Assembly (NCBI GenBank): GCA_003151335.1
Contig: PLXE01000037.1
Location: 9,075 to 43,380 of the forward strand
Direction of reading: 5' to 3'
Source of the DNA: Acidobacteriaceae bacterium
GTDB taxonomy: Bacteria; Acidobacteriota; Terriglobia; Terriglobales; Acidobacteriaceae
DNA length: 34,306 bases
Both the position numbers and the translations under genes were made by a program. The notes beneath the pieces were generated by a model, which saw nothing but the letters and a program-made list of their open reading frames with translations, was not told the origin of the DNA and searched no databases. Shown piece after piece: positions 1 through 14,684 of the stretch (the stretch's first letter is position 1; each line of letters starts with the position of its first letter).

Positions 1-167
1 GATGACATTCTGTTCATCTCATTGGCAGCGCTGGTGCCGGACAGGTAGAATCTAAGTATCAAGTTCGCCGTGAACATCAACGAAGATAGATGCTGGTTAG
101 CTATCACGAGCATAATCATAAGGCGACATTCCAGCACTACCGAGGGGCCACGCTGAGCTCTCACAGG

Positions 168-2705
168 ATGACCACTCCATCACGATCGCTGGTGATCCAC
201 GCTGTTCTCCAGAGCGTGGTGTTGCTCGTGTGGATGCTGCCGCTCTGCGGTTTTCTCTGGGCCTCCGCTCCCAGCGACCCTCGGGCCTACTCCATCAATC
301 TGTCGGTGATCGACGAAAACAACCAGCCTGTTCCTGATGCGATGGTGGAGATTCGCTCCAGCGGCGCGCTCATAAGCACCTCCACCACCAGCGCCACGGG
401 AAAAGTAACGCTTTCGCTCAACGGCGCTGCCAGTTATTCGCTGCGCGTTCAAAAGAAAGGTTACCTGCCGAATGAAACCACCTTGGAGGTCAGCGACAGC
501 AACGCCGCTCAGGACATTGACGTCGTCTTGAGTGCAGCGGCGCTGAGCGAGCAGAGTGTCGAAGTCAAAGGCGAAGCCTCCAATCCGGTCACCGAAACCG
601 CGGGCATTCAATCCACGCTGCCTACCGCTCAGGCCAAGAACAGCGCCCTGCGCCCCGCCACTCTGGCGGACGCGCTGCCTCTCATCCCCGGCATCGTGCG
701 CGCCAAGGACGGCAGCGTGCGCATCGCGGGCCTGGGGGAGAACCACAGCGCCTTGCTGGTCAACTCCGTCGATGTCACCGATCCCGCCACCGGGAGCTTC
801 GGCCTCAGCGTGCCCATTGATAGCGTGCAGACCGTGGAAGTGGCGGAGATGCCGTACCTGGCGCAGTATGGCAAGTTCACCGCCGGTGTGGTTTCTGCTG
901 AGACGCGGCGCGGTGGCGATAAATGGGATTACAGCTTGAACGATCCCTTTCCCGATTTCCGCATCCGCAGCGCACACATGGAGGGCATCGTCGATGCGTC
1001 TCCCCGATTCAATCTGAGCGGGCCTCTGGTCAAGGACAAACTCTATTTCGTTGAGGGCTTTCAGTATCTCTTCAACAATCAGGAAGTGATGACGCTTCCC
1101 TATCCGCAAAATCTCACCCGCTCAAGCGCCTACAATTCTTTCACCCAGCTTGACGCCATTCTGTCTGCCAGGCAGACCCTGACTGCGAGCTTCCATTTCG
1201 CGCCCCACAGTTTGCAATATGCCGGCCTCGACTACTTCAATCCTCAGCCGGTAACGCCGGATGCGAATTTCCACGAATCCACCGCGACACTGACGCATCG
1301 CTGGCAGATCGGCGACGGCCTGCTGCAAACCACATTCTCCGGTACGGGAGTCTCCAGCGCAGTCTCGCCCCAAGGCAACGCTGACATGGTGCTCACGCCG
1401 CTGGGCAATCAGGGAAATTATTTCAGCTACAACTCCCGCAGCGCCACCCGCTTTGTGTGGATGGAGCAGTGGACGCCACGCACTTTGCACTTCCACGGCC
1501 AGCACATTTTTCAGATCGGCTCTGTAATTGGACACAGTGAGAACGAGGGCCGCTTCCTAGGCAACCCAGTGAGCTTGCAGGACGCCAACGGACGGCTGCT
1601 GCAGACGATTGTTTATGTCGGCGGCAAGCCCTACAAGGTCGCCGATACAGAACCTGCGGTTTACGCTCAAGATCACTGGATACTGAACTCGCACCTGGCG
1701 GTTGATCTCGGGATTCGTCTGGAAGGCCAGACCATTACCTCGACCACGCGGGCGGCGCCGCGCACCGGCTTGGTGTGGTCGCCGGGCAAGTCCGGCAAAA
1801 CCGTGCTCCGCGGTGGCATCGGCATCTTTTATGACTCGGTGCCGCTGGATGTCTATGCCTTCAACAGCTACCCCGATCAACTCATCACCACCTACAATGC
1901 GCAGGGCCTGCCGATCGGGCCGCCGGTCCGTTATCTCAACATCACCGGCCAGGCGGCAGAATCGAACTTTCCCTTCATCGATCGCAAGCTCAAGAGCGGG
2001 AACTTCGCTCCGTACAGCACGGCCTGGAACCTCGAATTGGAACGAACGGTGACGCGCTGGTTGGTGGTCCGCGCGAAGTACCTGCAAAGCCACGAGCAGG
2101 ATATGATCACGCTGCAACCCGAGGCCACTCAGGGCCAGCCTGCCTTCGTGCTCAACTCCTCTGGATGGGCGCAAACTCGGCAGGCTGAATTTACCGCCCG
2201 CATCGGGTCGGCCTCGCCGCGTCAGTTCTTCTTCTCCTACGTGCGGCAGTATGCCTATGGTGACGTCAACGACGCCAGCTCCTACCTGGGAAATTTTCCT
2301 TCGCCGGTAATTCAACCCAATCTGACCGCCAGCTTGCCCAGCGAAATACCCAACCGCTTCCTGCTTTGGGGAAGCTACGGTAAACTGCCGAAGAAAATCA
2401 CCTTGTCGCCGCACATCGAGTACCGCAACGGATTTCCTTATCAGCCGACGAATGTATATCAGCAGTACGTGACTGTGACCGGACCTCAGTACCGTTACCC
2501 GAATTACTTCTCGGCGGACATGCGCGTGTCCAAAGACCTGCAGGTGAATCCGCAGCACGCGGTGCGGCTCTCGCTGACGGTCCGCAACTTGACCAACCAT
2601 TTCAATCCGCTGGAAGTGCATTCCAACTTCGCCGATCCCCTGTACGGAACGTTTTTCGGCAATTACGATCGCAAGTTCCTGTTCGATTTCGACTTCCTGT
2701 ACTGA
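168..2705 (+). CDS. TonB-dependent receptor with carboxypeptidase-regulatory-like N-terminal domain
   Basis: Outer-membrane receptor that would import a substrate using TonB energy; the substrate cannot be told. I start it at ATG 168 rather than at the upstream in-frame ATG 90, because 168 puts a normal signal peptide first (basic MTTPSRS, then a hydrophobic stretch ending near FLWASA). The 26 residues before it do not look like a leader. After the signal comes an Ig-like carboxypeptidase-regulatory domain (about residues 40-125, with VPDAMVEIRSSG). A plug-like domain follows (about 140-250, with RIAGLGENHSALLVNSVDV and QYGKFTAGVVSAETRRGG), then a long beta-barrel ending in the aromatic FDFDFLY. 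At 845 residues it is shorter than the roughly 1000-residue Oar-like receptors common in acidobacteria. It stands 366 nt upstream of the cytochrome operon and is probably transcribed separately. The family call is firm; the ligand is unknown. Confidence 0.9.
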   Translation: MTTPSRSLVIHAVLQSVVLLVWMLPLCGFLWASAPSDPRAYSINLSVIDENNQPVPDAMVEIRSSGALISTSTTSATGKVTLSLNGAASYSLRVQKKGYLPNETTLEVSDSNAAQDIDVVLSAAALSEQSVEVKGEASNPVTETAGIQSTLPTAQAKNSALRPATLADALPLIPGIVRAKDGSVRIAGLGENHSALLVNSVDVTDPATGSFGLSVPIDSVQTVEVAEMPYLAQYGKFTAGVVSAETRRGGDKWDYSLNDPFPDFRIRSAHMEGIVDASPRFNLSGPLVKDKLYFVEGFQYLFNNQEVMTLPYPQNLTRSSAYNSFTQLDAILSARQTLTASFHFAPHSLQYAGLDYFNPQPVTPDANFHESTATLTHRWQIGDGLLQTTFSGTGVSSAVSPQGNADMVLTPLGNQGNYFSYNSRSATRFVWMEQWTPRTLHFHGQHIFQIGSVIGHSENEGRFLGNPVSLQDANGRLLQTIVYVGGKPYKVADTEPAVYAQDHWILNSHLAVDLGIRLEGQTITSTTRAAPRTGLVWSPGKSGKTVLRGGIGIFYDSVPLDVYAFNSYPDQLITTYNAQGLPIGPPVRYLNITGQAAESNFPFIDRKLKSGNFAPYSTAWNLELERTVTRWLVVRAKYLQSHEQDMITLQPEATQGQPAFVLNSSGWAQTRQAEFTARIGSASPRQFFFSYVRQYAYGDVNDASSYLGNFPSPVIQPNLTASLPSEIPNRFLLWGSYGKLPKKITLSPHIEYRNGFPYQPTNVYQQYVTVTGPQYRYPNYFSADMRVSKDLQVNPQHAVRLSLTVRNLTNHFNPLEVHSNFADPLYGTFFGNYDRKFLFDFDFLY

Positions 2706-3070: not shown

Positions 3071-4330
3071 ATGCAGTTCCTGAAGAAATCGCGATTCGTC
3101 GCGATGTCCGCATTGCTGTTGCTGGCCGGGCACTGCGCTTATGCGCAGGTGGGTCGCTCGGGCATAGCGGCACAAAAGGGAAGCGTGAGTAAAGAGGCTA
3201 CGGTGACGGCGGTGGCGGGCGAAAGCTGGCTCACACATCTGAATCGGCCGTTCGACGAAACCAGCATGGGCAAGACCTGGCGCTTAGGCCCGCCTGCGCC
3301 GGCGCCTGGAGAGGCAACTCCCCAGTGGCAAGCTGACTGGCCGTCCGCTGTGGCATCGCAAACTTTGACGCTGCATGGTTCAGACCTGTACCGCATGAAT
3401 TGTCAGGGATGCCATGGCGAATCCGGCGCAGGGGCCCCGCCCGAAATCAACTCGGTCATTAACCCCGTGCGGGCGACTTCGGTCGAGCTGGTAATGGCAC
3501 GCATGAAGGTGTCTGGAATGGAGATCGGCCGGGCCGACGCGGTCAAGCTGGCGCAGCAGTCCAAAACGGCATTGTTGCAGCGACTGCGCAATGGGGGCGA
3601 GAACATGCCGCCGTTTCCTCACCTGAATGAGGCCGAGGTTAATTCGCTTTTCGCCTATCTGAAACAACTGGCCGCAGTTCCCGGCGCAGAAAGAGAGCAG
3701 CTGGCGGTGAAGGAATCGCGCCTCTGCGTGGGCGAGCACATTGTGAAGTCCACTTGTCACACCTGCCACGCCGCAACCGGGCCCGACCCCGGTCCCCAAC
3801 AGATTTGGGATGGAGCGATCCCCCCGCTGAGTACGCTCACCATGCGCAAGAGCCAGCCGGAGTTCATCCGCAAGGTCACTCGCGGAGCGCCGGTCCTGAT
3901 GGGCGCATCGCCAATGCTCTATCGCGGCAGAATGCCGGTTTTTTACTACTTAAGCGAGGACGAAGCGGCGGATGTGTATTTGTACCTGACCCTTGATCCG
4001 CCTTCGCAATCGGCCGGTCTGGGCACCATCGGCGCACTGACGCAACCAGGGTCAGCAGGCGGAGGAACGCCTCCTGTGAATGGGGGTGCATCGTCTGTTT
4101 CCCAGATACCGCAAGTTCAGCCACAACGCGGAGATGCTGACTGGCAAACCGTCCTCTTGCTGACGGGGGTTGCATCGTTCATAATCCTGCTGATGGCAGG
4201 CGGTCTCGGATTCACGATCCAAGAGTTTCAAAGGCTGTCGGCGGCAAAACCATTGCGCAGCCTGACCGTAACAACACAACCTAAAGGGAGGACTAAGGAT
4301 GCAACGGCGACCTTGCAACGCGTTTCGTAA
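3071..4330 (+). CDS. secreted dihaem cytochrome c with C-terminal membrane anchor
   Basis: Periplasmic c-type cytochrome with two haem sites. ATG 3071 is preceded by GGGGGA and opens a signal peptide ending near CAYAQ. The first haem motif is CQGCH at 111-115, in the class I context of an LYRMNCQGCHGE-like start with a later NMPPFP that may supply the axial Met. The second is CHTCH at 229-233, followed by a second module with RMPVFYYLS. A Gly/Pro/Ser-rich linker leads to one transmembrane helix at about 359-380, so the haem part probably faces the periplasm from the inner membrane. It overlaps the next gene by 32 nt, which indicates an operon. Its two class I modules parallel the dihaem Cyc1 of iron oxidisers, but sequence homology to Cyc1 specifically is not established here. 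Confidence 0.88.
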   Translation: MQFLKKSRFVAMSALLLLAGHCAYAQVGRSGIAAQKGSVSKEATVTAVAGESWLTHLNRPFDETSMGKTWRLGPPAPAPGEATPQWQADWPSAVASQTLTLHGSDLYRMNCQGCHGESGAGAPPEINSVINPVRATSVELVMARMKVSGMEIGRADAVKLAQQSKTALLQRLRNGGENMPPFPHLNEAEVNSLFAYLKQLAAVPGAEREQLAVKESRLCVGEHIVKSTCHTCHAATGPDPGPQQIWDGAIPPLSTLTMRKSQPEFIRKVTRGAPVLMGASPMLYRGRMPVFYYLSEDEAADVYLYLTLDPPSQSAGLGTIGALTQPGSAGGGTPPVNGGASSVSQIPQVQPQRGDADWQTVLLLTGVASFIILLMAGGLGFTIQEFQRLSAAKPLRSLTVTTQPKGRTKDATATLQRVS

Positions 4331-5957
4331 GACAAGTCTCTTTCTGATGCCGATGGTGCTGGCTATCGTATTTTCGAGCACCAGCTACGCCATTCCGGCG
4401 TTTTCACGCATGTATGGCACCAGTTGCAGTACCTGTCACGTTGACTTCCCCCAGTTGAACGACTTCGGGAAAGCCTTCAAAGACGCCGGCTTCAAGTTTC
4501 CCAAGGACGACGAGTCGATGATCAAGATTCCGCCGGTAATGCTGGGAGCGCCGGCCAACGCGGAACTGTGGCCGAAGGCCGTCTGGCCGGGCGTCATCCC
4601 CGGTATGCCGCCGATCGGGCTGCGCTATAACCAATACTTTCAGTACACGGGAACCAGCAGCTCGAAGTTCAATCAGTTGCTGCCGCCTGGAACAGTGGCG
4701 CCGTATACTCCGACCACTGACTTCCAGACTGGGCTATTCAGCATCTTTACCGCCGGCAATTTCGGCAGTGACATGGCATTCTGGGTGGACGACGACATCA
4801 GTGTCAGCGGCGCCAACGCCAACGGCGGATTGGGCGATGCCTATCTCAAATTCGTCAATGTCGGCCGGTTCCTGAAACTGCCCCAGAACTTGCTGAGTCT
4901 TCGCGTCGGCCAGTTTGAACTGGAACTGCCCTTTACCCAGGCCCGCAGCATTTGGATCAGTCCCTACGACATCTACACCCAGGCCAATATTGGGGCCATG
5001 AATCCGGCCTTTCCGCAGCAGTTCGTCAATAACCAATTCACCATAGCGGACGCGGGCAAGGGTGTCGAGTTGAGCGGAGGGCTGCACACCGGAGGCTACT
5101 ACTACTCGCTTGCCTTCATCGACCAGAACACCAGTGGATTCGGACAAGACGCGAACGGAGGCATCCCCTATGTTCCCCAGGCCACGGGCAGCAATAATGG
5201 CGGGCTGGGTGTGGCTTCGGATGCGAACTTCAAGGACCTCTACGCTTCGTTTAGCTACCGCTTTAACCTCGAGCGCGACAAGGAAAGCCGTAACGCCATC
5301 CAGGCAGCCGGCCCCACCGGACCGCGCGATCACACGTATCTGAACCTCGGCAGCTACTACTTCTATGGGCGTTCGGTGCAGCGGCTATCGGGGGCCACCG
5401 CCGATGGCGTTCCGACCGTCATCACCGCGCGCGAGCCGTTTTACCGGGTCGGCGGCAACATGACTTTCAACTACCGCTGCTGCCTGCAGTTCAATGCCCT
5501 GTACATGTACGGGCACGATGCCAACCTGCTGCCGGTCGACGCCAATGGCGTGCCGATTGGTTTGCCGGTGGGCACTATGCCGCTACCCGTCGGGTTCATT
5601 TCCGGTCGGGCGGCTACATTTAGCGGAGGCTTCGCCGACGTCGAATGGCTCGCTTATCCTTGGATGATGGTGCTGATGCGCTATGACGCCGTAAACTCCA
5701 ACTCGGACTACGTGAACGGCCTGACGGCGGGCGGATTCAGCGGCTCTCCCTTCAATGGGGCGGCCAGTGTAACGCGAAACCGGGTTACTCCGGGGGTGCA
5801 GTTCCTGATGCACGCTAACATCAAGGCGTCGTTTGAGTACCAGTTCCGTCCGTCGCAGTCGGTCATATTCGGGACAAATCCCGTCACCGGCCTCCCGGTG
5901 GCCCTGAACCCGTTCCATACCAATACGGCAGTCGCAGGTTTAGAATTCGTGTATTAA
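4299..5957 (+). CDS. predicted monohaem cytochrome-porin fusion (Cyc2-like)
   Basis: Outer-membrane-type protein with one covalent haem. GGGAGGACTAAGG just before ATG 4299 fixes the start inside the end of the previous gene. A signal peptide ending near SSTSYA is followed by IPAFSRMYGTSCSTCH: one haem motif (CSTCH, 43-47) directly after the cleavage region. Next comes a short segment with PQLNDFGKAFKDAGFKFP, then about 480 residues rich in alternating hydrophobic/polar stretches and aromatic residues, ending in the aromatic LEFVY typical of outer-membrane barrels. No other CxxCH is present. This layout, including the PxLNxFGxxFK block after the haem, is that of Cyc2-type fused cytochrome-porins, which pass electrons across the outer membrane. 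At 552 residues it is somewhat longer than the Acidithiobacillus protein. The architecture is well supported; an iron-oxidising role is inference. Confidence 0.72.
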   Translation: MQRRPCNAFRKTSLFLMPMVLAIVFSSTSYAIPAFSRMYGTSCSTCHVDFPQLNDFGKAFKDAGFKFPKDDESMIKIPPVMLGAPANAELWPKAVWPGVIPGMPPIGLRYNQYFQYTGTSSSKFNQLLPPGTVAPYTPTTDFQTGLFSIFTAGNFGSDMAFWVDDDISVSGANANGGLGDAYLKFVNVGRFLKLPQNLLSLRVGQFELELPFTQARSIWISPYDIYTQANIGAMNPAFPQQFVNNQFTIADAGKGVELSGGLHTGGYYYSLAFIDQNTSGFGQDANGGIPYVPQATGSNNGGLGVASDANFKDLYASFSYRFNLERDKESRNAIQAAGPTGPRDHTYLNLGSYYFYGRSVQRLSGATADGVPTVITAREPFYRVGGNMTFNYRCCLQFNALYMYGHDANLLPVDANGVPIGLPVGTMPLPVGFISGRAATFSGGFADVEWLAYPWMMVLMRYDAVNSNSDYVNGLTAGGFSGSPFNGAASVTRNRVTPGVQFLMHANIKASFEYQFRPSQSVIFGTNPVTGLPVALNPFHTNTAVAGLEFVY

Positions 5958-6000
5958 CAGCTTGAACCGGAGAGAAGCACAACAACGAAAGGAAATGTTC

Positions 6001-6576
6001 ATGATGCGCAGTTTTCTAGTAACGGTTTTATTGGTCACCGCCGTCGCAGCTACCGCTGTGGCTGGCACCATCGAAGGCAAAGTGTCGCCCGGGAAGTCCG
6101 TCGTTTATGTGGACACCATCCAGGGCAAAACGTTTCCGGCGCCATCGAAGCAGCCGGTCATGGACCAGAAGGGTTTGATGTTTAGCCCGCACGTTATGGC
6201 GGTTCAGGTGGGAACCACGGTCGAGTTCCAGAACAGCGATACCGTTCAGCACAATGTTTTCTGGCCCTCCATCAGCGGCAACAAGAAACTCGGCCACAAC
6301 CTCGGTACCTGGCCCAAGGGCGAGAAGAAGGCATTTAAGTTCGATAACCCCGGTGTGGTGTCGTTGCTGTGTAACGTGCACCCGGAGATGGCGGGATACA
6401 TCGTTGTCAGCCCGACGCCGTACTTCGCTGAGACTGACGCCAGCGGAAACTACAAAATCGAGAACGTTCCCGATGGCAAGTACAACGTGGTCGCCTGGCA
6501 TGAAGGCACCAAGCAGCAGAGCAAGTCGGTTGATGTCGCCGGCACCGGCAAGGCCGACTTCACCCTTTCGAAGTAA
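6001..6576 (+). CDS. secreted cupredoxin (plastocyanin-like) with C-terminal beta-sandwich extension
   Basis: Small periplasmic type 1 copper protein. The frame is open from TTG 5962, but AAAGGA at 5988-5993 best serves ATG 6001 (MMRSFLVTVLLV), which opens a signal peptide ending near AVAG. Numbered from 6001, the copper ligands are His84 (VQHNVFW), Cys124, His127 and Met130 in CNVHPEM, the C-x2-H-x2-M spacing of plastocyanin-type sites. The last 55 residues (from about SPTPYFAETDASGNYKI) look like a carboxypeptidase-regulatory-like domain. It follows the cytochrome-porin gene by 43 nt and is closed by a terminator, so it is the last gene of that operon. It would carry single electrons between outer- and inner-membrane partners, the position rusticyanin holds in iron oxidisers. 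Confidence 0.87.
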   Translation: MMRSFLVTVLLVTAVAATAVAGTIEGKVSPGKSVVYVDTIQGKTFPAPSKQPVMDQKGLMFSPHVMAVQVGTTVEFQNSDTVQHNVFWPSISGNKKLGHNLGTWPKGEKKAFKFDNPGVVSLLCNVHPEMAGYIVVSPTPYFAETDASGNYKIENVPDGKYNVVAWHEGTKQQSKSVDVAGTGKADFTLSK

Positions 6577-6583
6577 ACGCTAC

Positions 6584-6615
6584 GAAGGGCGGGCAGGGCT
6601 CCGCCCTTCTTCTTC
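6584..6615 (+). terminator. intrinsic terminator of the cytochrome/cupredoxin operon
   Basis: A perfect 9-bp stem GAAGGGCGG/CCGCCCTTC (6584-6592 with 6601-6609) around an 8-nt loop is followed by TTCTTCC. It lies 8 nt after the cupredoxin stop and separates this operon from the Rieske/cytochrome b operon. Confidence 0.8.
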
Positions 6616-6653: not shown

Positions 6654-8636
6654 ATGCAAATTCGCTTCGCTAACAAGAAGGTCGACCGGGAATGGCTGAA
6701 TACCAATTTCCCCTGCATGATGGCGTGTCCCGCGCACACCAATGCCGGCCGTTATGTGACCCTGATCGCCGAGGGGCGCTTCGAAGAGGCATATCGTGTT
6801 GCGCGCGATCCGAATCCTATGGCGAGCATCTGCGGGCGCGTCTGTGCTCACCCCTGCGAAACCGCGTGCCGCCGCGGCCAAATTGACCGTCCGATTTCCA
6901 TTCGCGCCCTGAAGCGGTTCCTCACCGAGCGGCATGGCCCCGAGTCGCGTCATCCGGTTGCGCCCAGTACGCATCCAGTCGGAAAACTTCCTTTCAAGGT
7001 CGCTGTGATCGGCGGCGGACCCGTCGGGCTCTCAGCCGCGCATGATCTCGCCTTGATGGGCTACTCGGTAACAATTTTCGAGGCGTCGCCAGTGGCCGGA
7101 GGAATGTTGTACCTCGGAATCCCGGAGTATCGTCTGCCGCGCAGTGTGGTGGAGGCGCAGGTGCGCGAGATCCTGGAGACCGGCGACATCACGCTGCGCC
7201 TGAACGCCGCGGCCGGGCGCGACTTCACGGTCGGCGAGCTGAGACGCCAGGGCTTCGATGCTGTCCTGATCGCAGTTGGCGCACATCGCAGCCGCGACCT
7301 CTCCATCCCGGGCGTTGATCTCGATGGCGTGCATCGCGGCATTGAATTTCTGCTCAACGTCAATCTCGGCTACAAGTTCACCATCGGGAAGAAAGTCATC
7401 GTGATCGGCGGCGGCAATGTCGCCATGGATGTCGCGCGCTCGGCCGCGCGCGAAGTGCTGCGCCAGCATGATTCGCCCGGTGAGATAACGCCCTCGGAAG
7501 AGAATGTGCAAACCGTCGCCGCGCACGAGATGATGGACATCTCGCTGTCGGCGCTGCGCATGGGCGCTCGCGAGGTCGGCCTGGTTTGCCTCGAGCAGCG
7601 CCACGAAATGCCCGCGGCGTTGGAGGAAATCGAGGAGGCGGAGACCGAAGGCATCGTCATGCATCCGGGTTTTGGGCCCAAGCGGGTCCTCGGACGTGAC
7701 GGCAAAGTCGTGGGCCTGGAATGCCTGAAGACCAAGTATGTCTTCGACGAAAACCACCGATTCAATCCTGCCTTCTACGACAACAGCGATACCCAGTTTG
7801 AGTGCGACACCATCATTCTTTCCATCGGCCAGGCGCCCAACCTGGAATTTCTGCGGCCTGAGGATGGCGTGCTGGTCTCGCCTCGCGGCCTTATTAACGT
7901 GAATCGCGACAGCTTGATGACCTCGGCCCCTGGCGTATTCGCCGGTGGCGATTGCGCATTCGGACCGCGCCTCATCATTGACAGCGTGGGCGACGGAAAG
8001 CGCGCGGCGGTTGGCATTGACGAGTACCTTCGCGGGACCGAGCATCCGGAACCGCAGATTGAAGTACAAGTCCTCGACCGCTGGCAAATGGCAGTAGACT
8101 ACATGAACATCCACCGCCAGGCCATTCCCATGCTGCCGCTCGATCGCCGGACCGGCATGACCGAGGTCGAGCTGGTTTACAGCGAGCAGGAAGCGATGGC
8201 CGAGGCGCAGCGCTGCCTGAAGTGCTATGTCAACACCATTCTCGAAGGCAACGAACACGACGGCACCGCCTGCGTGCTGTGCGGCGGCTGCGTGGACGTC
8301 TGTCCGGAGAACTGCCTGGAGTTGGTGCCGCTGGACCGGATTCAGTTCGAGCCGGACAGCATCGATGCCATCGCCAACCACCCCGAGTGGTTCAGCTTCG
8401 AGTTGGAAAATATACAGCCGGCGGAATTAGGCAGCGTCACCGGAACTGCGATGTTGAAGGACGAGACCCGCTGCATCCGCTGCGGCCTGTGCGCGCTGCG
8501 CTGTCCCGCCAACACCATTACCATGGAGTCTTATAACTTTGTGGCGACCGAGCCGACCGGGCTCATCACCATTCAAAGCTTCGATGGGCCCAAGCCGGCT
8601 GCGGCGCCAGCGTCTATGCCTGCTCCGGCGAAATGA
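6654..8636 (+). CDS. FAD/Fe-S NAD(P)H oxidoreductase, GltD type with C-terminal 2x[4Fe-4S] domain
   Basis: Soluble flavoprotein expected to exchange electrons between NAD(P)H and the adjacent quinone-linked complex. ATG 6654 follows GGGGG. The N-terminal Fe-S domain has Cys at 21, 25, 60, 64, 68 and 72 (CMMACPAHTNAGRY; CGRVCAHPCETAC), as in glutamate synthase small subunits. An FAD-binding Rossmann motif (VAVIGGGPVGLSAA) lies near 115-145 and an NAD(P)-binding one (VIVIGGGNVAMDVA) near 245-275. APGVFAGGD marks the second FAD contact. The C-terminal ferredoxin part has two clusters: C540, C543, C546, C550 and C607, C610, C613, C617. No glutamate synthase large subunit is nearby; the Rieske gene follows after 15 nt. 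It is therefore better read as the NAD(P)H module of the bc complex than as GltD. Confidence 0.85.
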   Translation: MQIRFANKKVDREWLNTNFPCMMACPAHTNAGRYVTLIAEGRFEEAYRVARDPNPMASICGRVCAHPCETACRRGQIDRPISIRALKRFLTERHGPESRHPVAPSTHPVGKLPFKVAVIGGGPVGLSAAHDLALMGYSVTIFEASPVAGGMLYLGIPEYRLPRSVVEAQVREILETGDITLRLNAAAGRDFTVGELRRQGFDAVLIAVGAHRSRDLSIPGVDLDGVHRGIEFLLNVNLGYKFTIGKKVIVIGGGNVAMDVARSAAREVLRQHDSPGEITPSEENVQTVAAHEMMDISLSALRMGAREVGLVCLEQRHEMPAALEEIEEAETEGIVMHPGFGPKRVLGRDGKVVGLECLKTKYVFDENHRFNPAFYDNSDTQFECDTIILSIGQAPNLEFLRPEDGVLVSPRGLINVNRDSLMTSAPGVFAGGDCAFGPRLIIDSVGDGKRAAVGIDEYLRGTEHPEPQIEVQVLDRWQMAVDYMNIHRQAIPMLPLDRRTGMTEVELVYSEQEAMAEAQRCLKCYVNTILEGNEHDGTACVLCGGCVDVCPENCLELVPLDRIQFEPDSIDAIANHPEWFSFELENIQPAELGSVTGTAMLKDETRCIRCGLCALRCPANTITMESYNFVATEPTGLITIQSFDGPKPAAAPASMPAPAK

Positions 8637-8651
8637 TGATATTGAGGATTT

Positions 8652-9146
8652 ATGCCTGACGAACCAAAACCCGCGGCTTCACCCGAGAGCCCGGAGGAGA
8701 TGAGCCGGCGGCAGTTTTTCGTCAAGGTCGGAGTGGGCTCGGTGGCGGTGGCCGCACTGGGCACGGCGGCCTTCTCTTACGAGTACCTGTCGCCGAATGT
8801 GCTCTACGAACCGTCGCCGATTGTGGATGCGGGAAAGCCCGACCACTATCCTCCGGACTCGGTTACGCTCGATCCGGCGACTGCGATCTACGTGGTGCGC
8901 ACGGCGGAGGGATTCTTCGCGCTCTCGGCCATCTGCACTCACCTGGGTTGCATGACGGCCTATAAGCCGGACCTCGGCATCATCGCCTGCCCCTGCCACG
9001 GCAGCAAGTTCAACAAGGACGGCGTGAAGATCGCCGGCCCCGCGCCCAGACCGCTTCCCTGGCTGCGCATGTGGCTGAGCGACGATGGCAACCTGATGGT
9101 TGACCGCTCCAATGCCGTCGCCATCAAGCAACTGGTGAGGGTCTAG
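8652..9146 (+). CDS. Rieske [2Fe-2S] protein of a cytochrome bc/b6f-type complex
   Basis: High-potential iron-sulfur subunit that takes the first electron from quinol. Both Rieske boxes are intact: CTHLGC (Cys95, His97, Cys100) and CPCHGSKF (Cys113, Cys115, His116). The N-terminus carries a twin-arginine-type signal ([13 protein letters not shown]) with a hydrophobic stretch that normally stays as the membrane anchor. GAGG precedes ATG 8652. At 164 residues it is a typical bacterial length. The cytochrome b gene starts 3 nt after its stop, so translation is probably coupled. Confidence 0.95.
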
Positions 9147-9148
9147 CC

Positions 9149-9904
9149 GTGGCCAATACCCTCGATCGCCTCGCTGACCAGGTTCGCGAGAACCGCATAT
9201 GGCGCTCCATTTTTCGCAGCGGCACCGGTGAGAGCAACCTGCACCGTGCGTTAACTGTGCAGCAAAACGTCTTCCTGCACCTGTTCTCGGTCAAGGCGCG
9301 CAAGCGCACGTTGGAGTTCCGTGCGACATGGTATTTGGGGGCGCTGACCTTCGGGACGTTCCTTATTCTCGTGATCACCGGCATTCTGCTGATGCTGTAT
9401 TACCACCCCTCGGTCCCGCAGGCCTACGCCGACATGAAAGACCTGCAGTTCGTGGTCTCGTCAGGCGTGTTTCTGCGCAACCTGCATCGCTGGTCGGCCC
9501 ACGCCATGGTTTTCCTGGTGTTCGCGCACATGTTCAAGGTGTTCTATCGCGGGGCTTATCGGCCGCCGCGTGAGTTCAACTGGGTCATTGGCGTTGTGCT
9601 GCTTCTGATGACGCTGCTGCTGAGTTATACGGGCTACCTGCTGCCGTGGGACCAACTGGCTTTCTGGGCGGTGACGGTCGGCAGCAACATTGCCTCGGCG
9701 GTGCCGGTGATAGGCGCCAAGATGCGGTTCCTGATGCTGGGCGGAACGGCCGTGAACGCCAATGCGCTGCTCCGTTTCTACGTTCTGCACTGCGTAATTC
9801 TGCCCTTTGCCGCGGTTGTGTTAATCGCGATCCACTTCTGGCGGATTCGCAAGGACGGCGGAATTTATCCCGGTGAATCTCCGGCGGAAGGAGACGCCAA
9901 GTGA
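9149..9904 (+). CDS. cytochrome b N-terminal subunit (b6-like)
   Basis: Integral membrane dihaem subunit with four hydrophobic helices. The start is GTG 9149. The haem b histidines are visible: NLHRWSAH to VFAH (first pair, 14 apart) and VLHCVILPF to AIHFW (second pair, 15 apart). The second spacing, with 14 residues between the histidines, is that of cytochrome b6 rather than mitochondrial-type cytochrome b. The [20 protein letters not shown] stretch is the conserved quinol-site region. The b6-plus-subunit-IV split is confirmed by the next gene, which overlaps this one by 4 nt (GTGA). The gene belongs to the operon beginning at 6654. Confidence 0.95.
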
Positions 9905-10605
9905 GCGATCCCAAAGATTTCGTTGCCGTCGTCGACTCCGATGTGCGTAAGACACCCCGGCGCATAGCCTTCATAACCAAGCGGACCTCGCCGCAAGTGC
10001 ACGTGAAGGATGAAGAGCGGGTGATGACCTATCCCGAAGTTTTCTTCCGCACCGCAGTCGCTATTCAAGTCCTCGCAATTATATTGGTCGTCATTTCGCT
10101 GCGCTGGAATGCACCGCTGGAAGGGCTCGCCGATCCCATGCACACGCCCAATCCGGCAAAGGCGCCCTGGTACTTCCTCGGTTTGCAGGAATTGCTGCAC
10201 TACTTCCCGCCGGTGGTGGCAGGCGTTCTCATACCTGGTCTGGTGGTGATGGCACTCATCGTGATTCCCTACTTCAACATCAACATCGAAGCCGAGGGAT
10301 TATGGCTGCGCGACAAAGCTAGGCGTCTGCGAATTTTCGGCATTGTGGTTGTGCTGTTCTGTATTTTTCTGGCAGTGTTCGATGTCTGGGTGGCACTGGT
10401 TCCGACCCTCATCGTCGCCGCGTTCATGCTGCTGGCCGCGCAAACCCCTCCCCAGACAACACGAGGATTCCGCGGCTGGTTGGCCAGTAAACCGCTGTCG
10501 TTCTGGATCATGACATGGTTCTTGTTCGAACTGGTTGTGCTAACTGCCATCGGCACCTTCTTCCGCGGGCCGGGATGGTCGTGGGTTTGGCCATGGAGGG
10601 CTTAG
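9901..10605 (+). CDS. cytochrome b C-terminal subunit (subunit IV-like)
   Basis: Second half of the split cytochrome b. It starts at GTG 9901, overlapping the b6-like gene by 4 nt. The sequence [19 protein letters not shown] corresponds to the quinol-oxidation loop. Where most complexes have PEWY, this has A88-P89-W90-Y91, so the glutamate thought to accept a proton from quinol is absent. From memory, this variant occurs in menaquinol-type complexes of other anaerobe-rich phyla. Hydrophobic helices lie at about 46-66, 105-125, 143-163, 165-180 and 200-222. At 234 residues it is longer than plant subunit IV (about 160), with extra C-terminal helices. Confidence 0.93.
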
Positions 10606-10611
10606 GCTGTC

Positions 10612-12663
10612 ATGAAGAATAACCTTCACGCCCTGTGGCAGCTCTTCTTCGGCGACAGCGCTCGCGCCTTTGGGTCGGCAAGCGTCATCCTACTTGTGCT
10701 GCTGGCCGTCGCGCCCGCCAAAAACCACTTCAGCCAGTGGCGTCACTATCAGAAGCAATACTTACATCTCATCCGCGGCCGCGCCGACGCTGTTACCCTC
10801 GAACGGCACTTCCAAGGCGGCATCCAGCAGATATGGATTCCCGAGCAGCAAGTGACCGACCGTTGCACGACCTGCCATCTCGGGATGAAAGAAGCCAGCC
10901 TTGCAGACGTCAGCTCAGTGGCATTTCGCGAACACCCGGTAATTCCGCACAAATTGACGGAGTTCGGCTGCACGACCTGCCACCGCGGACAAGGGGCCGC
11001 GACCACCGTCGAGGAGGCGCATAGCGCCACGGAACAATGGGAGCAGCCGCTGCTGCCGGCTAAGTACATCGAAGCCGGCTGCGGGCAATGCCATCTGGAA
11101 AATCAAACCGGGACACCGTTTCTCAACCAGGGGCGGCAACTCATCGTCAGCTACGGCTGCACGCACTGCCACACCATCAAGCAGGGGGACGGGACTTACG
11201 TCACTCCAGACGACGATCCGCCCTCGCTGAAGCACATCGCCGACAAGACCACGCGCGAGTGGGTCTATGCCTGGATCAAAGATCCTCAAGCCTATGCCGG
11301 CACGGCTACCATGCCGAACTACCATTTGAGCGATGACGATGCCCGCGACGTCTCGGCATTCATCCTTGCCCAGAGCACACCGCTCGAGCCGCCGCTCCAG
11401 CCGGTGAAGGCTGACACGAAAACGCCAGCCGATCCGGCCGCAGGCACCTCGCTCTACGGCCAATCCTTCTGCGCTTCGTGCCATGCCATGCAGAATGCTG
11501 CCGGCATGATGGTCGGAGGTAATGTCGGGCCTGAGCTGACGGGCATCGGCACGAAAGCGAAACCGGAGTGGCTGCAGGATTGGGTGGCCAATCCCAATCA
11601 CTATGATCCAGGCACCATGATGCCGCACTACCGCTTCGACGCCGCCCAAGTGGCTACCCTGACCGGATTCCTGGAGTCGAAGGTGGAGCCCGACTTCGTC
11701 GCCAATGTGCATCTCGACGCCGCCACGCCGGAGCAAGTCGAACACGGCAAGCGATTGGCGGTCGAGAATGGCTGCGCCAGTTGCCACGAGATCAACGGCA
11801 TCAAGAAGCCGGAGAATTTTGCGCCTGAGCTGAGCCGCATCGGCAGCAAACCACTCAACCAACTGATTTTCGTCGAAGGCGTCGAGCACAGCCTGCCTGG
11901 CTATGTAGCTGGAAAGGTGCGCAATCCGCGCGCCTTCGGGCCGTCGCTGAAGATGCCGCAGTTCAAGTTCACGCCGCAGCAGATCGATGCCATCACCACC
12001 GCGCTGCTGGCGCTGACCGACCGAGCGCAGAGCCAGCCGCCCACCATGCGGATTGCCTCGGTCCAGCAGTCCAAGTATCAGCCGGCAGGAAATGCCGGAC
12101 AGCTCATGGGCGACCTGCGCTGCTTCACCTGTCACATGATCAACGGGCACGGTGGGGACATGGCTCCCGACCTCACCTGGGAAGGGACCGCGGTACAGCG
12201 CGAGTGGCTGACGCAGTTTCTGAAGAACCCGGAAACGCTGCGGCCCGCGCTGATTCGCCGCATGCCCAAGTTCAACCTCCGGGACGCGGAGATCAACACT
12301 CTGGCTGATTACATGATGACCGTGTACCAGACGCCGGAGTTTGACCGCGATTCCCTGCCGGTGTCACAGTTCAATCCCGCGCAGGTGGAACAGGGGCGGC
12401 AGCTTTTCTATTCCAAATTTGCCTGCCAGTCCTGCCACATCGCCGATTACAAGAACGACAAAGGCTACATTGGCCCGGCGCTGGCGGCGACCGGCAAGCG
12501 GTTTAATGCAGCCTGGGTTTATTACTGGCTGAAAGATCCACAGGCGCTGCGTCCGGGGACCATCGAGCCCAACCAGCACATGACCGACGACGAGGCGCGC
12601 GCGTTGACGGCGTTCCTGATGTCGCTCAAGTCTGGCGGCGCACAGGGGGCGATGAAGAAATGA
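10612..12663 (+). CDS. membrane-anchored octahaem cytochrome c of the bc complex
   Basis: Large electron-transfer subunit in the position of cytochrome c1/f. An uncleaved hydrophobic segment near residues 20-35 anchors it. Eight CxxCH motifs start at Cys 85, 120, 157, 183, 287, 388, 504 and 605. The first three are close together in a compact N-terminal part. The last five each open a class I-like module with a shared pattern: CxxCH, then a W-x2-W-(I/V/L)-x-(D/N)-P-like segment, then MP-x-(F/Y), then a helix such as DDDARDVSAFI. The fifth module has IEPNQHM in place of the MP motif, so its axial ligand may differ. It starts 6 nt after subunit IV and overlaps the next gene by 4 nt. It probably conducts electrons away from the Rieske centre toward periplasmic partners. 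Confidence 0.92.
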   Translation: MKNNLHALWQLFFGDSARAFGSASVILLVLLAVAPAKNHFSQWRHYQKQYLHLIRGRADAVTLERHFQGGIQQIWIPEQQVTDRCTTCHLGMKEASLADVSSVAFREHPVIPHKLTEFGCTTCHRGQGAATTVEEAHSATEQWEQPLLPAKYIEAGCGQCHLENQTGTPFLNQGRQLIVSYGCTHCHTIKQGDGTYVTPDDDPPSLKHIADKTTREWVYAWIKDPQAYAGTATMPNYHLSDDDARDVSAFILAQSTPLEPPLQPVKADTKTPADPAAGTSLYGQSFCASCHAMQNAAGMMVGGNVGPELTGIGTKAKPEWLQDWVANPNHYDPGTMMPHYRFDAAQVATLTGFLESKVEPDFVANVHLDAATPEQVEHGKRLAVENGCASCHEINGIKKPENFAPELSRIGSKPLNQLIFVEGVEHSLPGYVAGKVRNPRAFGPSLKMPQFKFTPQQIDAITTALLALTDRAQSQPPTMRIASVQQSKYQPAGNAGQLMGDLRCFTCHMINGHGGDMAPDLTWEGTAVQREWLTQFLKNPETLRPALIRRMPKFNLRDAEINTLADYMMTVYQTPEFDRDSLPVSQFNPAQVEQGRQLFYSKFACQSCHIADYKNDKGYIGPALAATGKRFNAAWVYYWLKDPQALRPGTIEPNQHMTDDEARALTAFLMSLKSGGAQGAMKK

Positions 12664-13388
12664 AGCCTCTGCTCATCGCTGTTTATGCGGCCACGCTGCT
12701 GATGGCTGGATGCTCGCGCAAGAGCAACCAGCCTGCACCTCTGCAATCCACCGCCACCGGAACTGCGATTGTCGAATCTAGCGGCGGCAAGCAGATTGGT
12801 TATGCCGGAATGCTGCTGGATCAACCAGTCGTGGTGCAGGTGAACGACGCCTCAGGAAATGGGGTCGCCGGCACGGCGGTATATTTCAGCGGGCCAGCCG
12901 GTGTGAGTTTTGCCCCAGCCGCTGCGCTGACCGACTCCAGTGGCCAAGTCACCAGCACGGTCGAGCTCGGTCAACAGGCGGGGCGATACAAAATCGTGGC
13001 GAGCACGCGCGATAAATCGGGAAAGGCGATCGACCTCAGTCTCGACGAGATCGCGTTAGGTTACCAGCAAACGGTGGGAGCGCAGCTCAACACGCAGTAC
13101 TGCGTCCGCTGTCACGACCCGGAGTCAACGCCGCAGCGCGTCTCCAACATGGACAACCTCTCGGTCAAGCCACATCCGTTCACCGAAGGCGACACGCTCA
13201 ACAAGATGAGCGATGCCGACCTGGTCGCCATTATCAGCCACGGCGGTCCTGCCTTGAACAAATCGCCGCAGATGCCACCCTGGGGATACACGCTCTCCAA
13301 GAGCGACATCGCTGCGCTGGTGTCGTACATTCGCGCGGTGGCCGATCCACCGTACCAGGCCGGCGGACTGGTGTATGCCCAGAAGTAA
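12660..13388 (+). CDS. lipoprotein monohaem cytochrome c with Ig-like domain
   Basis: ATG 12660 overlaps the octahaem stop (ATGA). The N-terminus is a lipoprotein signal (LLMAGC, Cys18 lipidated) followed by a Ser/Pro-rich linker. Residues about 50-135 look like a bacterial Ig-like (Big_1) domain: VVVQVNDASGNGVAGTAVYF, then GQVTSTVELG. The haem motif CVRCH is at 148-152, in a C-terminal class I module of about 95 residues ending with MPPWGYTLSKSDIAALVSYI. It is likely tethered to a membrane facing the periplasm, and a Big_1-type domain may hold the haem away from the membrane or bind a partner. The fusion is uncommon; its electron partner is unknown. Confidence 0.83.
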   Translation: MKPLLIAVYAATLLMAGCSRKSNQPAPLQSTATGTAIVESSGGKQIGYAGMLLDQPVVVQVNDASGNGVAGTAVYFSGPAGVSFAPAAALTDSSGQVTSTVELGQQAGRYKIVASTRDKSGKAIDLSLDEIALGYQQTVGAQLNTQYCVRCHDPESTPQRVSNMDNLSVKPHPFTEGDTLNKMSDADLVAIISHGGPALNKSPQMPPWGYTLSKSDIAALVSYIRAVADPPYQAGGLVYAQK

Positions 13389-13430: not shown

Positions 13431-14684
13431 ATGAAATTTGTAGAAGGCATCGCAGTCCTGAGTGTTGTGCTGGGAACGATCGGTCCCCTCACGGCGCAAG
13501 TTGTCACGCCGATGGAGTTGTCCGATCCGAAAACGCAGCAACTGCAGCAGCGGCACCTCAAGACCTTGATGGCGATCGGGACCGAGATCGAAGCGCACAA
13601 ATTTCCTTATCCTTTCTATTTCAGCCGCGTCCTCGACGTCGATCTCCCCAAGATGCAGCTGGCCGATCAGCGCTCCATCCGCTTCGACATTTACAAGGGC
13701 CAAACTGTGCTGGAAATCACGGGCAACTACTATGCTGCCTATTCGGCCGACCGCATGGATTCTTACGCGCGCCTGAAAGAAACATTTCAGAGCGTCGTCA
13801 TGCCCATGCTGCAAGTCGAGGTGCCGCACTTCCCGGATGATTCGGAATTTTCCGCGTTTGCCATCGAGGTCTCCCATCACGTGCGGCAAAAAGTAATGGG
13901 CGTCAACTCGGAGCGCCCGGAGAACGTCACCGTCATCATTCCGGTTCCGGTTGCCCAGCAGCTGGTGGACGCCAAGACCGACGACCAGAAGCAGTCGGCG
14001 GTCCTGGAAGCGAAGGTGTTCCTGAACGGAGAGCCGTATTCGCTGTGGTTGCAGGAGGGCGCGCCCTCGGAGGAGTGGAAAGAAAAGTTTGCGCCCCTGC
14101 CCGCGACGAAGAAGCCTGTCGAGACGGCAAGCACCGCGCCCAGTCCGGCCGCATCGGCCAATCCATCCGTCTCCGCCAACCTGACTTCACCAACACCAAT
14201 ACGGATCTTTAGTCCGGACGCTTTGGCGAAATTGCAACGCCAGAATGATGACGCCGTCACGCGTATGACCAAGGCCCTCAACCAAGAAGCGCATTTTCTG
14301 CCATACGCGGCGCCCACCTTCATTGGGTTCCGTCAGGGCGCCTACTTGCAACTGTCCATTACCACCAACCTCAATGCGGCCGCCGGAACCTCTCGCTACA
14401 AACTGGCGGCCCTGGCCTTCGATGAGCATATTTCTCATCTGGTGCGGCCGGTGTTGAATTATTTTCCGCAAGATGCGGATTTTGATGGCATTGTTTTCAG
14501 CAGCATGATTCACGTCGCCGACGGTTCGAGTCCGGAGGCGGTGGAATTCTTCCTTCCCTTCCGCGTGATGCGTTGTTTCGCCTCCTACGATTGCACCGGC
14601 CAGCAGTTGCTGGACTCGGGAACGATCGTGATTAACGGGGAACGCGCCGCCCTCGATCTGCAAATCGCTGAAGGCAAGAACTGA
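13431..14684 (+). CDS. secreted protein of unknown function with two homologous halves
   Basis: I do not recognise the family. It has a signal peptide ending near GPLTAQ and no haem, Cys-pair or transmembrane segment after it. Residues about 35-200 and 265-417 look like repeats of one domain. HFPDDSEFSAFAIEVSHHV matches NYFPQDADFDGIVFSSMIHV in pattern. The ENVTVIIPVPV strand matches EAVEFFLPFRV, and VFLNGEPYSL matches IVINGERAAL. The linker (about 225-262) is Ala/Pro/Ser/Thr-rich. It lies 42 nt after the lipoprotein cytochrome on the same strand and is probably the last gene of the bc operon, so it may be an accessory or assembly factor. Confidence 0.7.
   Translation: MKFVEGIAVLSVVLGTIGPLTAQVVTPMELSDPKTQQLQQRHLKTLMAIGTEIEAHKFPYPFYFSRVLDVDLPKMQLADQRSIRFDIYKGQTVLEITGNYYAAYSADRMDSYARLKETFQSVVMPMLQVEVPHFPDDSEFSAFAIEVSHHVRQKVMGVNSERPENVTVIIPVPVAQQLVDAKTDDQKQSAVLEAKVFLNGEPYSLWLQEGAPSEEWKEKFAPLPATKKPVETASTAPSPAASANPSVSANLTSPTPIRIFSPDALAKLQRQNDDAVTRMTKALNQEAHFLPYAAPTFIGFRQGAYLQLSITTNLNAAAGTSRYKLAALAFDEHISHLVRPVLNYFPQDADFDGIVFSSMIHVADGSSPEAVEFFLPFRVMRCFASYDCTGQQLLDSGTIVINGERAALDLQIAEGKN

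Follow-up and report, generated by a model that had tools for sequence, protein, structure and literature searches.

The window analysed here, a stretch of 34,306 nucleotides from an Acidobacteriaceae genome, carries a gene cluster that appears to encode an electron-exchange system spanning the whole cell envelope. A putative outer-membrane porin-cytochrome, a periplasmic cupredoxin, an inner-membrane complex of Rieske protein, b6-type cytochrome b, subunit IV and octahaem cytochrome, and a cytoplasmic GltD-like oxidoreductase are encoded in one cluster, which most relatives have kept; sequences and structure models support this assignment. A dihaem cytochrome c is supported as a likely alternative inner partner, which this species has in addition to the genes of the complex (the Rieske/b block). 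The system is a Cyc2-like port joined to an NAD(P)-linked Rieske/b complex, has swappable parts, and was so far found in acidobacterial metagenome-assembled genomes (MAGs). Our preferred reading, held with slightly less than even confidence, is that of a modular system which takes electrons inward, with Fe(II) as the most likely donor. For comparison we drew on two papers, Keffer et al. 2021 (PMC8406198) on Cyc2 and a study of Kuenenia stuttgartiensis complexes (PMC12954380).

Composition and conservation of the cluster

An initial annotation had described three adjacent genes, for a dihaem cytochrome c, a monohaem porin-cytochrome and a cupredoxin, as a compact operon of the rus (iron-oxidation) kind. 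The three genes were found where it had placed them, and their CxxCH counts and Pfam domains agree with the identities proposed. Its idea of a minimal outer-membrane route also proved right, as far as sequence and models indicate a porin-cytochrome of the Cyc2-like kind in the outer membrane, with a cupredoxin and a dihaem cytochrome encoded next to it. The trio as the unit had to be given up: the cluster has an NAD(P)-linked Rieske/b complex for its inner half, and the trio is not conserved as a group across acidobacterial genomes. The dihaem and porin-cytochrome genes overlap by 32 bases, and from the cupredoxin gene down to the gene of the exported protein P417 the same-strand gaps run from -4 to 77 bases.

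We searched a sample of 200 genomes of the order with the porin protein (E <= 0.001), which was matched in 96; 30 of these (L001-L030) hold the group-1 type, that of the window. Wide neighbourhoods were fetched for 25 of the 30 loci (L031-L055), and the order porin, cupredoxin, GltD, Rieske, cytochrome b was seen in 23 of them (in L045 the contig ends there). L049 has a dihaem gene without the block, and the contig of L055 starts inside the porin gene, with no upstream sequence and no block. By tblastn the dihaem gene was found in only one of the 25 loci. Gene calls in relatives came from a simple open-reading-frame picker, by which genes may be missed or fused. In a sample of the whole phylum, 40 of 396 genomes had a match to the family profile (E <= 1e-20), which in 13 covered almost its full length.

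A scan of named genomes gave 106 relatives, the best 80 of which form the named-locus set. All 80 carriers are MAGs, 79 with Acidobacteriota names and one binned as Ignavibacteria, and 22 of the 80 record titles mention palsa, bog or fen; some contigs carry two locus identifiers. The MAG named Ignavibacteria (L139) holds an acidobacterial variant with a dihaem gene, P417 and a broken porin frame, possibly on a misbinned contig. Presence of the dihaem gene and of the block was tabulated for 52 of the 80 loci, the other 28 being excluded for short flanks (17) or a porin identity below 50% (11). Of these 52 loci, 42 have only the block, 7 have only the dihaem gene, 1 combines the two and 2 lack both (Fisher p = 2e-6, kinship ignored). 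The sole locus of the table with both, L071, has a porin 99% identical to that of the window, which is a further case of both. Six of the seven loci with dihaem cytochrome, porin-cytochrome and cupredoxin but no block also have P417.

The conserved cluster, which runs to 14684, is made up of porin-cytochrome, cupredoxin, GltD-like protein, Rieske protein, b6, subunit IV, octahaem cytochrome, monohaem cytochrome and P417, and the dihaem cytochrome is an occasional extra, mostly where the Rieske/b complex is missing. The dihaem cytochrome was rejected as a core of the unit, as it is found in only 8 of the 52 loci. Its gene stands before the porin gene, between those of the cupredoxin and P417, or after that of P417, and this variable placement fits repeated independent replacement. 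We then built a careful tree of 70 of the 86 porins, excluding those without CxxCH or shorter than 380 amino acids (L139, with its broken frame, among them) and including L112, which is too short-flanked for the table. On this tree the dihaem/block types change 6 times, at least 5 of the changes being forced by supported branches. The labels are not more clustered than shuffled ones (6 changes versus a mean of 6.7-6.8, a count as low being reached in 105-116 of 500 shuffles), in line with repeated switching. A quick tree that included distant porins had very long outgroup branches, and the switch count was taken from the careful tree only. In L137 and L055, a group-1 porin and a cupredoxin are followed by another exported-looking protein (426 and 423 amino acids, 86% identical), with neither block nor P417.

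Table 1 Features of the window discussed in the text, with their positions in the window.
Feature	Position	Strand	Remarks
TonB-dependent-receptor-like gene with carboxypeptidase-regulatory-like domain	90-2705		Upstream of the cluster
Dihaem c-type cytochrome (cytC2), 419 amino acids	3071-4330	+	2 CxxCH; Pfam Cytochrome_CBB3, 61.4 bits
Porin-cytochrome (POR), Cyc2-like, 552 amino acids	4299-5957	+	Signal segment, one CxxCH, predicted 16-strand barrel
Cupredoxin, amicyanin/plastocyanin-type, CxxHxxM, 191 amino acids	6001-6576	+	Pfam Copper-bind, 27.9 bits
Intergenic hairpin between the cupredoxin and GltD-like genes	6584-6609	+	Fold of -20.0 kcal/mol
GltD/NfnB-like FAD NAD(P) oxidoreductase with N- and C-terminal iron-sulphur domains	6654-8636	+	Pfam Pyr_redox_2, Fer4_20, Fer4 (two stretches)
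Rieske protein	8652-9146	+	Pfam Rieske; best PDB match 9rk4
b6-type cytochrome b	9149-9904	+	Pfam Cytochrome_B, 157 bits; four membrane segments
Subunit-IV-like C-terminal part of cytochrome b	9901-10605	+	Pfam Cytochrom_B_C, 25.5 bits; ExtQ, 56.5 bits (cut-off 150)
Octahaem c-type cytochrome of the Rieske/b complex	10612-12663	+	8 CxxCH
Monohaem c cytochrome with Ig-like domain (CYC3)	12660-13388	+	Pfam Big_1, Cytochrome_CBB3; one CxxCH in 35 of 35 relatives
P417, exported protein	13431-14684	+	AlphaFold2 pLDDT 87.7; no Pfam match at 0.01

The positions of the genes can be seen in Table 1. The three-gene operon had also been thought to be closed by one terminator. A hairpin does follow the cupredoxin gene, but the closure was not borne out: the GltD-like gene lies 77 bases past the cupredoxin gene in the order seen in most relatives, and the hairpin is unremarkable alone (z = -1.4), on which grounds we rejected it as an operon end. 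Terminator-like sites in the region are not commoner than in shuffles (12 found versus 11.3 expected). Among relatives with a gap of 40-150 nucleotides between the cupredoxin and GltD-like genes, a hairpin with z < -2 was found in that gap in 25 of 34, compared to 2 of the control stretches from inside the GltD-like gene, and the recurring hairpin differs in sequence between relatives. It is possibly a partial terminator or a stabiliser of the mRNA, and may govern how much porin and cupredoxin is made relative to the membrane complex.

The model of P417 is confident and has two parts. No match to it was found by Foldseek in the PDB at E <= 0.001 and the best VIA Z was 6.2, which does not in itself make it a new fold. 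Since P417 was not found in the 14 stretches that carry another Cyc2-like porin with the same block, its association is with the group-1 porin rather than the Rieske/b block. The TonB-dependent-receptor-like neighbour of the cluster has a close match (91%) at the same place only in L071 among the 80 named loci.

Porin-cytochrome, electron carriers and Rieske/b complex

The porin-cytochrome has a single CxxCH at residue 43, behind a hydrophobic segment (14-32) which we take from hydropathy, and not from a signal-peptide program, as its signal segment. It gave no family match in Pfam or NCBIfam and no convincing relative among PDB sequences (best E 0.71 and 0.17), so its homology rests on profile comparison and fold. 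In plasmid searches the window porin was unmatched and the group-3 porin gave three short matches, and no named Cyc2 reference was gained. In hhalign, the profile of group 1 and 2 porins and the acidobacterial porins of the rus-like kind aligned with E 4.6e-35 across 405 columns. According to Keffer et al. 2021 (PMC8406198), the Cyc2 signature consists of AXPXFAR[Q/K][T/Y], CXXCH and PXL. The window has AIPAFSRMY, CSTCH and PQL (CSTCHVDFPQL), with PxL four residues past CxxCH. The first motif is exact in 15 of the 68 group-1 members, the window being one of the 68, and in 9 of the 11 loci L140-L150. CxxCH, PxL and a length above the Cyc2 minimum of 365 amino acids hold in 68 of 68, rows without CxxCH having been excluded beforehand; the haem motif is kept in homologues, as the initial annotation had expected.

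An AlphaFold2 model from 30 aligned relatives (mean predicted local distance difference test score, pLDDT, 63.7; predicted template-modelling score 0.66) predicts a membrane beta-barrel after the haem segment, whose 16 strands of at least 6 residues lie within residues 75-520 of the mature protein; four shorter strands were modelled besides. In VIA-align the best-scoring solved structures were OprP (2o4v, Z 24.3, root-mean-square deviation 3.3 over 314 residues) and OprO (4rjw, Z 24.1), followed by chitoporin and general porins from Z 22.3; Foldseek alone put OprP in third place. The same two proteins served as templates for Cyc2 in Keffer et al. 2021 (PMC8406198). Judged by profile homology and predicted fold, the protein is Cyc2-like, a putative divergent member of the Cyc2 superfamily. 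With Cyc2 fused cytochrome-porins (Cyc2PV-1, A. ferrooxidans Cyc2, Leptospirillum Cyt572) it shares the signal segment, the single N-terminal CxxCH with PxL four residues on, the length, and a predicted 16-strand barrel resembling OprP/OprO. It differs in its signature, and the likeness was drawn via the acidobacterial rus-like porins and not via a named Cyc2 sequence.

The CxxCH motifs of the dihaem cytochrome lie at residues 111 and 229, and it has a single C-terminal membrane segment (361-379) besides two matches to cytochrome c domains. The best start of the cupredoxin is the ATG at 6001, the listed TTG start being at 5962, and the protein also bears a carboxypeptidase-regulatory-like domain. 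Its CxxHxxM and HNxF motifs are kept in 57 of 57 relatives by a relaxed pattern of the copper ligands, and in 26 of 57 by a stricter one. The 23 PDB matches at E <= 0.1 comprise plastocyanins, amicyanins, copper nitrite reductases, a pseudoazurin and a blue copper domain protein. Rusticyanin has the ligand spacing C-x4-H-x4-M. The rusticyanin-type cupredoxin of the initial annotation is not supported by the CxxHxxM spacing and these matches, which point to a protein of the amicyanin/plastocyanin kind.

The complexes of Kuenenia (Kuste4569-4574 and Kustd1480-1485) are the closest to the inner half of the cluster by Rieske sequence, and share with it a b6-type cytochrome b with subunit IV and a hexa- or octahaem cytochrome c. 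They consist of these subunits and an NAD(P) oxidoreductase, and are proposed to bifurcate quinol, yielding NAD(P)H and passing the other electron to an acceptor (PMC12954380). The best PDB matches of the window Rieske protein were 9rk4 (Kuste4569, E 1.5e-27) and 9rk3 (Kustd1480, 4e-19), with b6f Rieske proteins at 1e-15. It retains the tuning Ser, its Tyr position is occupied by Phe as in the aligned Kustd1480, and CxCHGSxF is present in 38 of 38 sequences; the Rieske subunits of Kuenenia were measured at +303 and +335 mV (PMC12954380). The GltD-like protein has cysteines for several iron-sulphur clusters, and NfnA and GltD are among its PDB relatives. By its domains it is a putative NAD(P) oxidoreductase like that of Kuenenia, with FAD and iron-sulphur clusters. 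The window block differs from the Kuenenia complexes in being encoded with an outer-membrane porin-cytochrome and a cupredoxin, and in having no HAO-like subunit in the cluster.

The membrane segments of cytochrome b were assigned by hydropathy. Its 63 alignment rows represent 50 distinct relatives, in which His44, His113 and His127 are present in 50 of 50 and His214 and His229 in 49 of 50 (one gap). For Kuenenia, His43/His62 are proposed to bind an extra b haem at the dimer interface (PMC12954380), and His44 of the window is near to His43 by number alone, not by an alignment with Kuste4571. Subunit IV shows four membrane segments by hydropathy, a fifth being possibly merged with the third (the Kuenenia type has five), and the octahaem cytochrome has 8 CxxCH in 44 of 44 relatives. 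The b6f complex has a covalently bound haem cN; since Cys215 is the only cysteine of the window cytochrome b, a covalent haem of this kind is not evident. The top NCBIfam names for both cytochrome b parts were ExtP and ExtQ of selenite/tellurite reduction operons, and ExtS also matches the octahaem cytochrome. However, every match was below the curated cut-off (263.2, 56.5 and 88.8 for ExtP, ExtQ and ExtS, against 290, 150 and 100).

Ports and inner partners in related genomes

Using the window cytochrome b as query, 77 of the 200 order-sample genomes were matched at E <= 1e-60. We fetched 40 further cytochrome b neighbourhoods, 17 at an identity of at least 64%, 15 at 53-59% and only 8 near 50%. 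In 14 of the first 17 loci the same block is flanked, on one side or the other, by a second Cyc2-like porin (PS[Y/F]ARQTG..C..CH), in most cases with Y in place of the F of the Cyc2 signature. Among the others, L163 breaks off within the cupredoxin gene and L173 is without the block. A third porin type (PAFARK[Y/F]GVKC or PAFARRY) was found in 9 of the 15 loci of the middle range (L174, L176, L177, L179, L181, L182, L183, L185 and L187), as in L070. It is accompanied there by one or two monohaem cytochromes, GltD, Rieske, a fused cytochrome b and a hexahaem c. In L070 a sigma-54 response regulator and a histidine kinase precede this cluster. L180 has a block of the hexahaem type at the contig start and the porin motif about 7 kb on, on the opposite strand. 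Rieske, fused cytochrome b and a heptahaem cytochrome, with GltD a few genes on and no porin-cytochrome motif, were seen in L175, L178, L184, L186 and L188, and these loci are complexes with some other partner. The porin haem motif was found in none of the 13 Rieske/b loci of other subtypes, made up of these 5 and the 8 fetched near 50% identity. In L069 a porin-cytochrome lies beside a Rieske gene and a cytochrome b with fused cytochrome c.

Seven rus-like loci (L062-L068), picked from the order-sample porin matches, hold a further porin paralogue, whose Cyc2 signature is exact or nearly so. All seven have a dihaem cytochrome and a cupredoxin after this porin (about 3 kb further in L062), and COX2, COX1, COX3 and COX4 genes come after it in four: L063 (8688-17481, with UbiA), L065, L066 and L068. 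At E <= 1e-60 the rus-like porin was present in 31 of the 200 genomes, and in this search it was not found in the genome of the window. The parts list that the initial annotation shared with the rus operon of Acidithiobacillus, Acidiferrobacter and Acidihalobacter (cyc2-cyc1-cup-coxBACD-...) stands in so far as porin-cytochrome, dihaem cytochrome and cupredoxin are adjacent. However, the true rus-like operon with oxidase genes is a separate, paralogous one in relatives and was not found in this genome. The window also differs from the rus operon in the order dihaem-porin-cupredoxin, in the amicyanin-type cupredoxin, in having no oxidase genes (coxBACD) among the genes of its cluster, and in the Rieske/b complex with NAD(P) oxidoreductase that follows the trio.

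The rus-like porin occurs in 15 of 44 block-bearing genomes versus 16 of 156 without the block (p = 3e-4, kinship ignored), the block set being inferred from a cytochrome b of at least 73% identity, with G080 (64%) left out. For genomes with a group-1 porin the corresponding values are 11 of 30 versus 20 of 170 without. One COX1 over the cut-off was found in the genome of the window, on another contig. On its contig 69 (L155), a second cytochrome b lies beside a gene judged Rieske-like by eye and several multihaem cytochromes with at least 4 haem motifs.

These arrangements could represent a plug-and-socket class in Acidobacteriota, a proposal that we consider possible though well short of probable. 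The cupredoxin would be its hub, with interchangeable Cyc2-type ports (two clades with the same block and a third with a related one) and interchangeable inner partners (dihaem cytochrome, haem-copper oxidase, Rieske/b). In the Rieske/b form, quinone-based bifurcation, or bifurcation run backwards, would tie electron exchange across the outer membrane directly to NAD(P)H.

Direction of electron flow and significance

If electrons move inward, a dissolved one-electron donor, most likely Fe(II), would be oxidised at the haem in the pore and the electron would pass from there to the cupredoxin. A downhill branch would lead from the cupredoxin to the dihaem cytochrome, the cell's haem-copper oxidase and oxygen, and an uphill branch through the octahaem cytochrome into the Rieske/b complex and, aided by the proton-motive force, to quinone and NAD(P)+. 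The path from outer membrane to NAD(P) would comprise porin-cytochrome, cupredoxin, octahaem or dihaem cytochrome, Rieske/b, an iron-sulphur chain and FAD. The entry port and the uphill branch of iron oxidation would then share one operon, whereas the uphill branch of Acidithiobacillus is a separate bc1 pathway with complex I; the co-occurrence of rus-like porin and block can be likened to the downhill and uphill branches of that organism. We lean towards the inward direction, without reaching an even level of confidence, because the three Cyc2 representatives with biochemical tests are Fe(II) oxidisers (PMC8406198), homologues in relatives adjoin oxidase genes, and the block and the rus-like porin co-occur.

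Several observations weigh against this reading. The barrel model is of moderate confidence, and its residues 1-73, haem domain included, have pLDDT values below 50, so that the placement of the haem domain is uncertain. The window motif AIPAFSRMY has two substitutions relative to the Cyc2 signature, keeping 5 of its 7 fixed positions. L159 has the block and no porin motif in 19 kb, 29 of the 44 block-bearing genomes, this one included, are without a rus-like porin, and the p values for the alternation of dihaem gene and block and for co-occurrence have no correction for relatedness. The RuBisCO large subunit was not found in this genome, so it is not evident why electrons should be driven in reverse to NAD(P)H, and the donor would supplement a heterotroph. 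Finally, the proposal for Kuenenia runs the other way, from quinol to NAD(P)H and an acceptor (PMC12954380).

The strongest alternative, which we find somewhat less likely, takes up this opposite direction as an electron-bifurcating extracellular respiration. Quinol would be split at the Rieske/b complex. One electron would run downhill to Fe(III) or oxidised humics outside the cell, by way of Rieske protein, octahaem cytochrome, cupredoxin and porin-cytochrome, and its passage would pay for lifting the other through the iron-sulphur chain and FAD to NAD(P)+. Acceptor aside, this matches the Kuenenia proposal as described (PMC12954380), and the Kuenenia Rieske proteins are the closest solved relatives of the window's, which resembles them at the tuning positions. 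The missing oxidase gene in the cluster, the missing RuBisCO and the peatland wording of the record titles would also be in line with it. However, the tested Cyc2 representatives are Fe(II) oxidisers (PMC8406198), homologous porins in relatives adjoin oxidase genes, and the organism has its own COX1.

It is unlikely that the porin instead moves a solute, such as a metal complex or an anion, with a structural or switching haem and with Rieske/b as a co-regulated, ordinary quinol oxidase branch. Although the barrel fold is that of solute porins and an OprP-like pore could carry anions, CxxCH and PxL are found throughout group 1 (in the rows retained for having CxxCH), three porin types with a haem motif pair with such complexes, and the cupredoxin ligands are invariant. 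Very unlikely is a minimal rus-like pathway of three genes independent of those downstream: the trio does occur without the block in seven of the 52 loci, six of them with P417, but in the window the block follows closely on the same strand and in conserved order, and in 42 of the 52 loci the block has no dihaem gene beside it.

Cyc2 is a marker gene for microbial iron oxidation, and many of its homologues are in organisms not known to oxidise iron (PMC8406198). In the literature searched (titles and abstract openings, with subscription journals and preprints mostly outside), we found no description of a Cyc2-like porin paired with a Rieske/b complex. One set of Cyc2-like porins would be wired not to an oxidase but to an NAD(P)-linked Rieske/b complex of the anammox type. 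With inward flow, these acidobacteria could draw reducing power from Fe(II), and with outward flow they would respire extracellularly and form NAD(P)H in doing so. Either direction, if true, would alter the interpretation of Cyc2 matches in peat and soil metagenomes, and the Kuenenia-type complex would gain an electron partner beyond the anammox bacteria.

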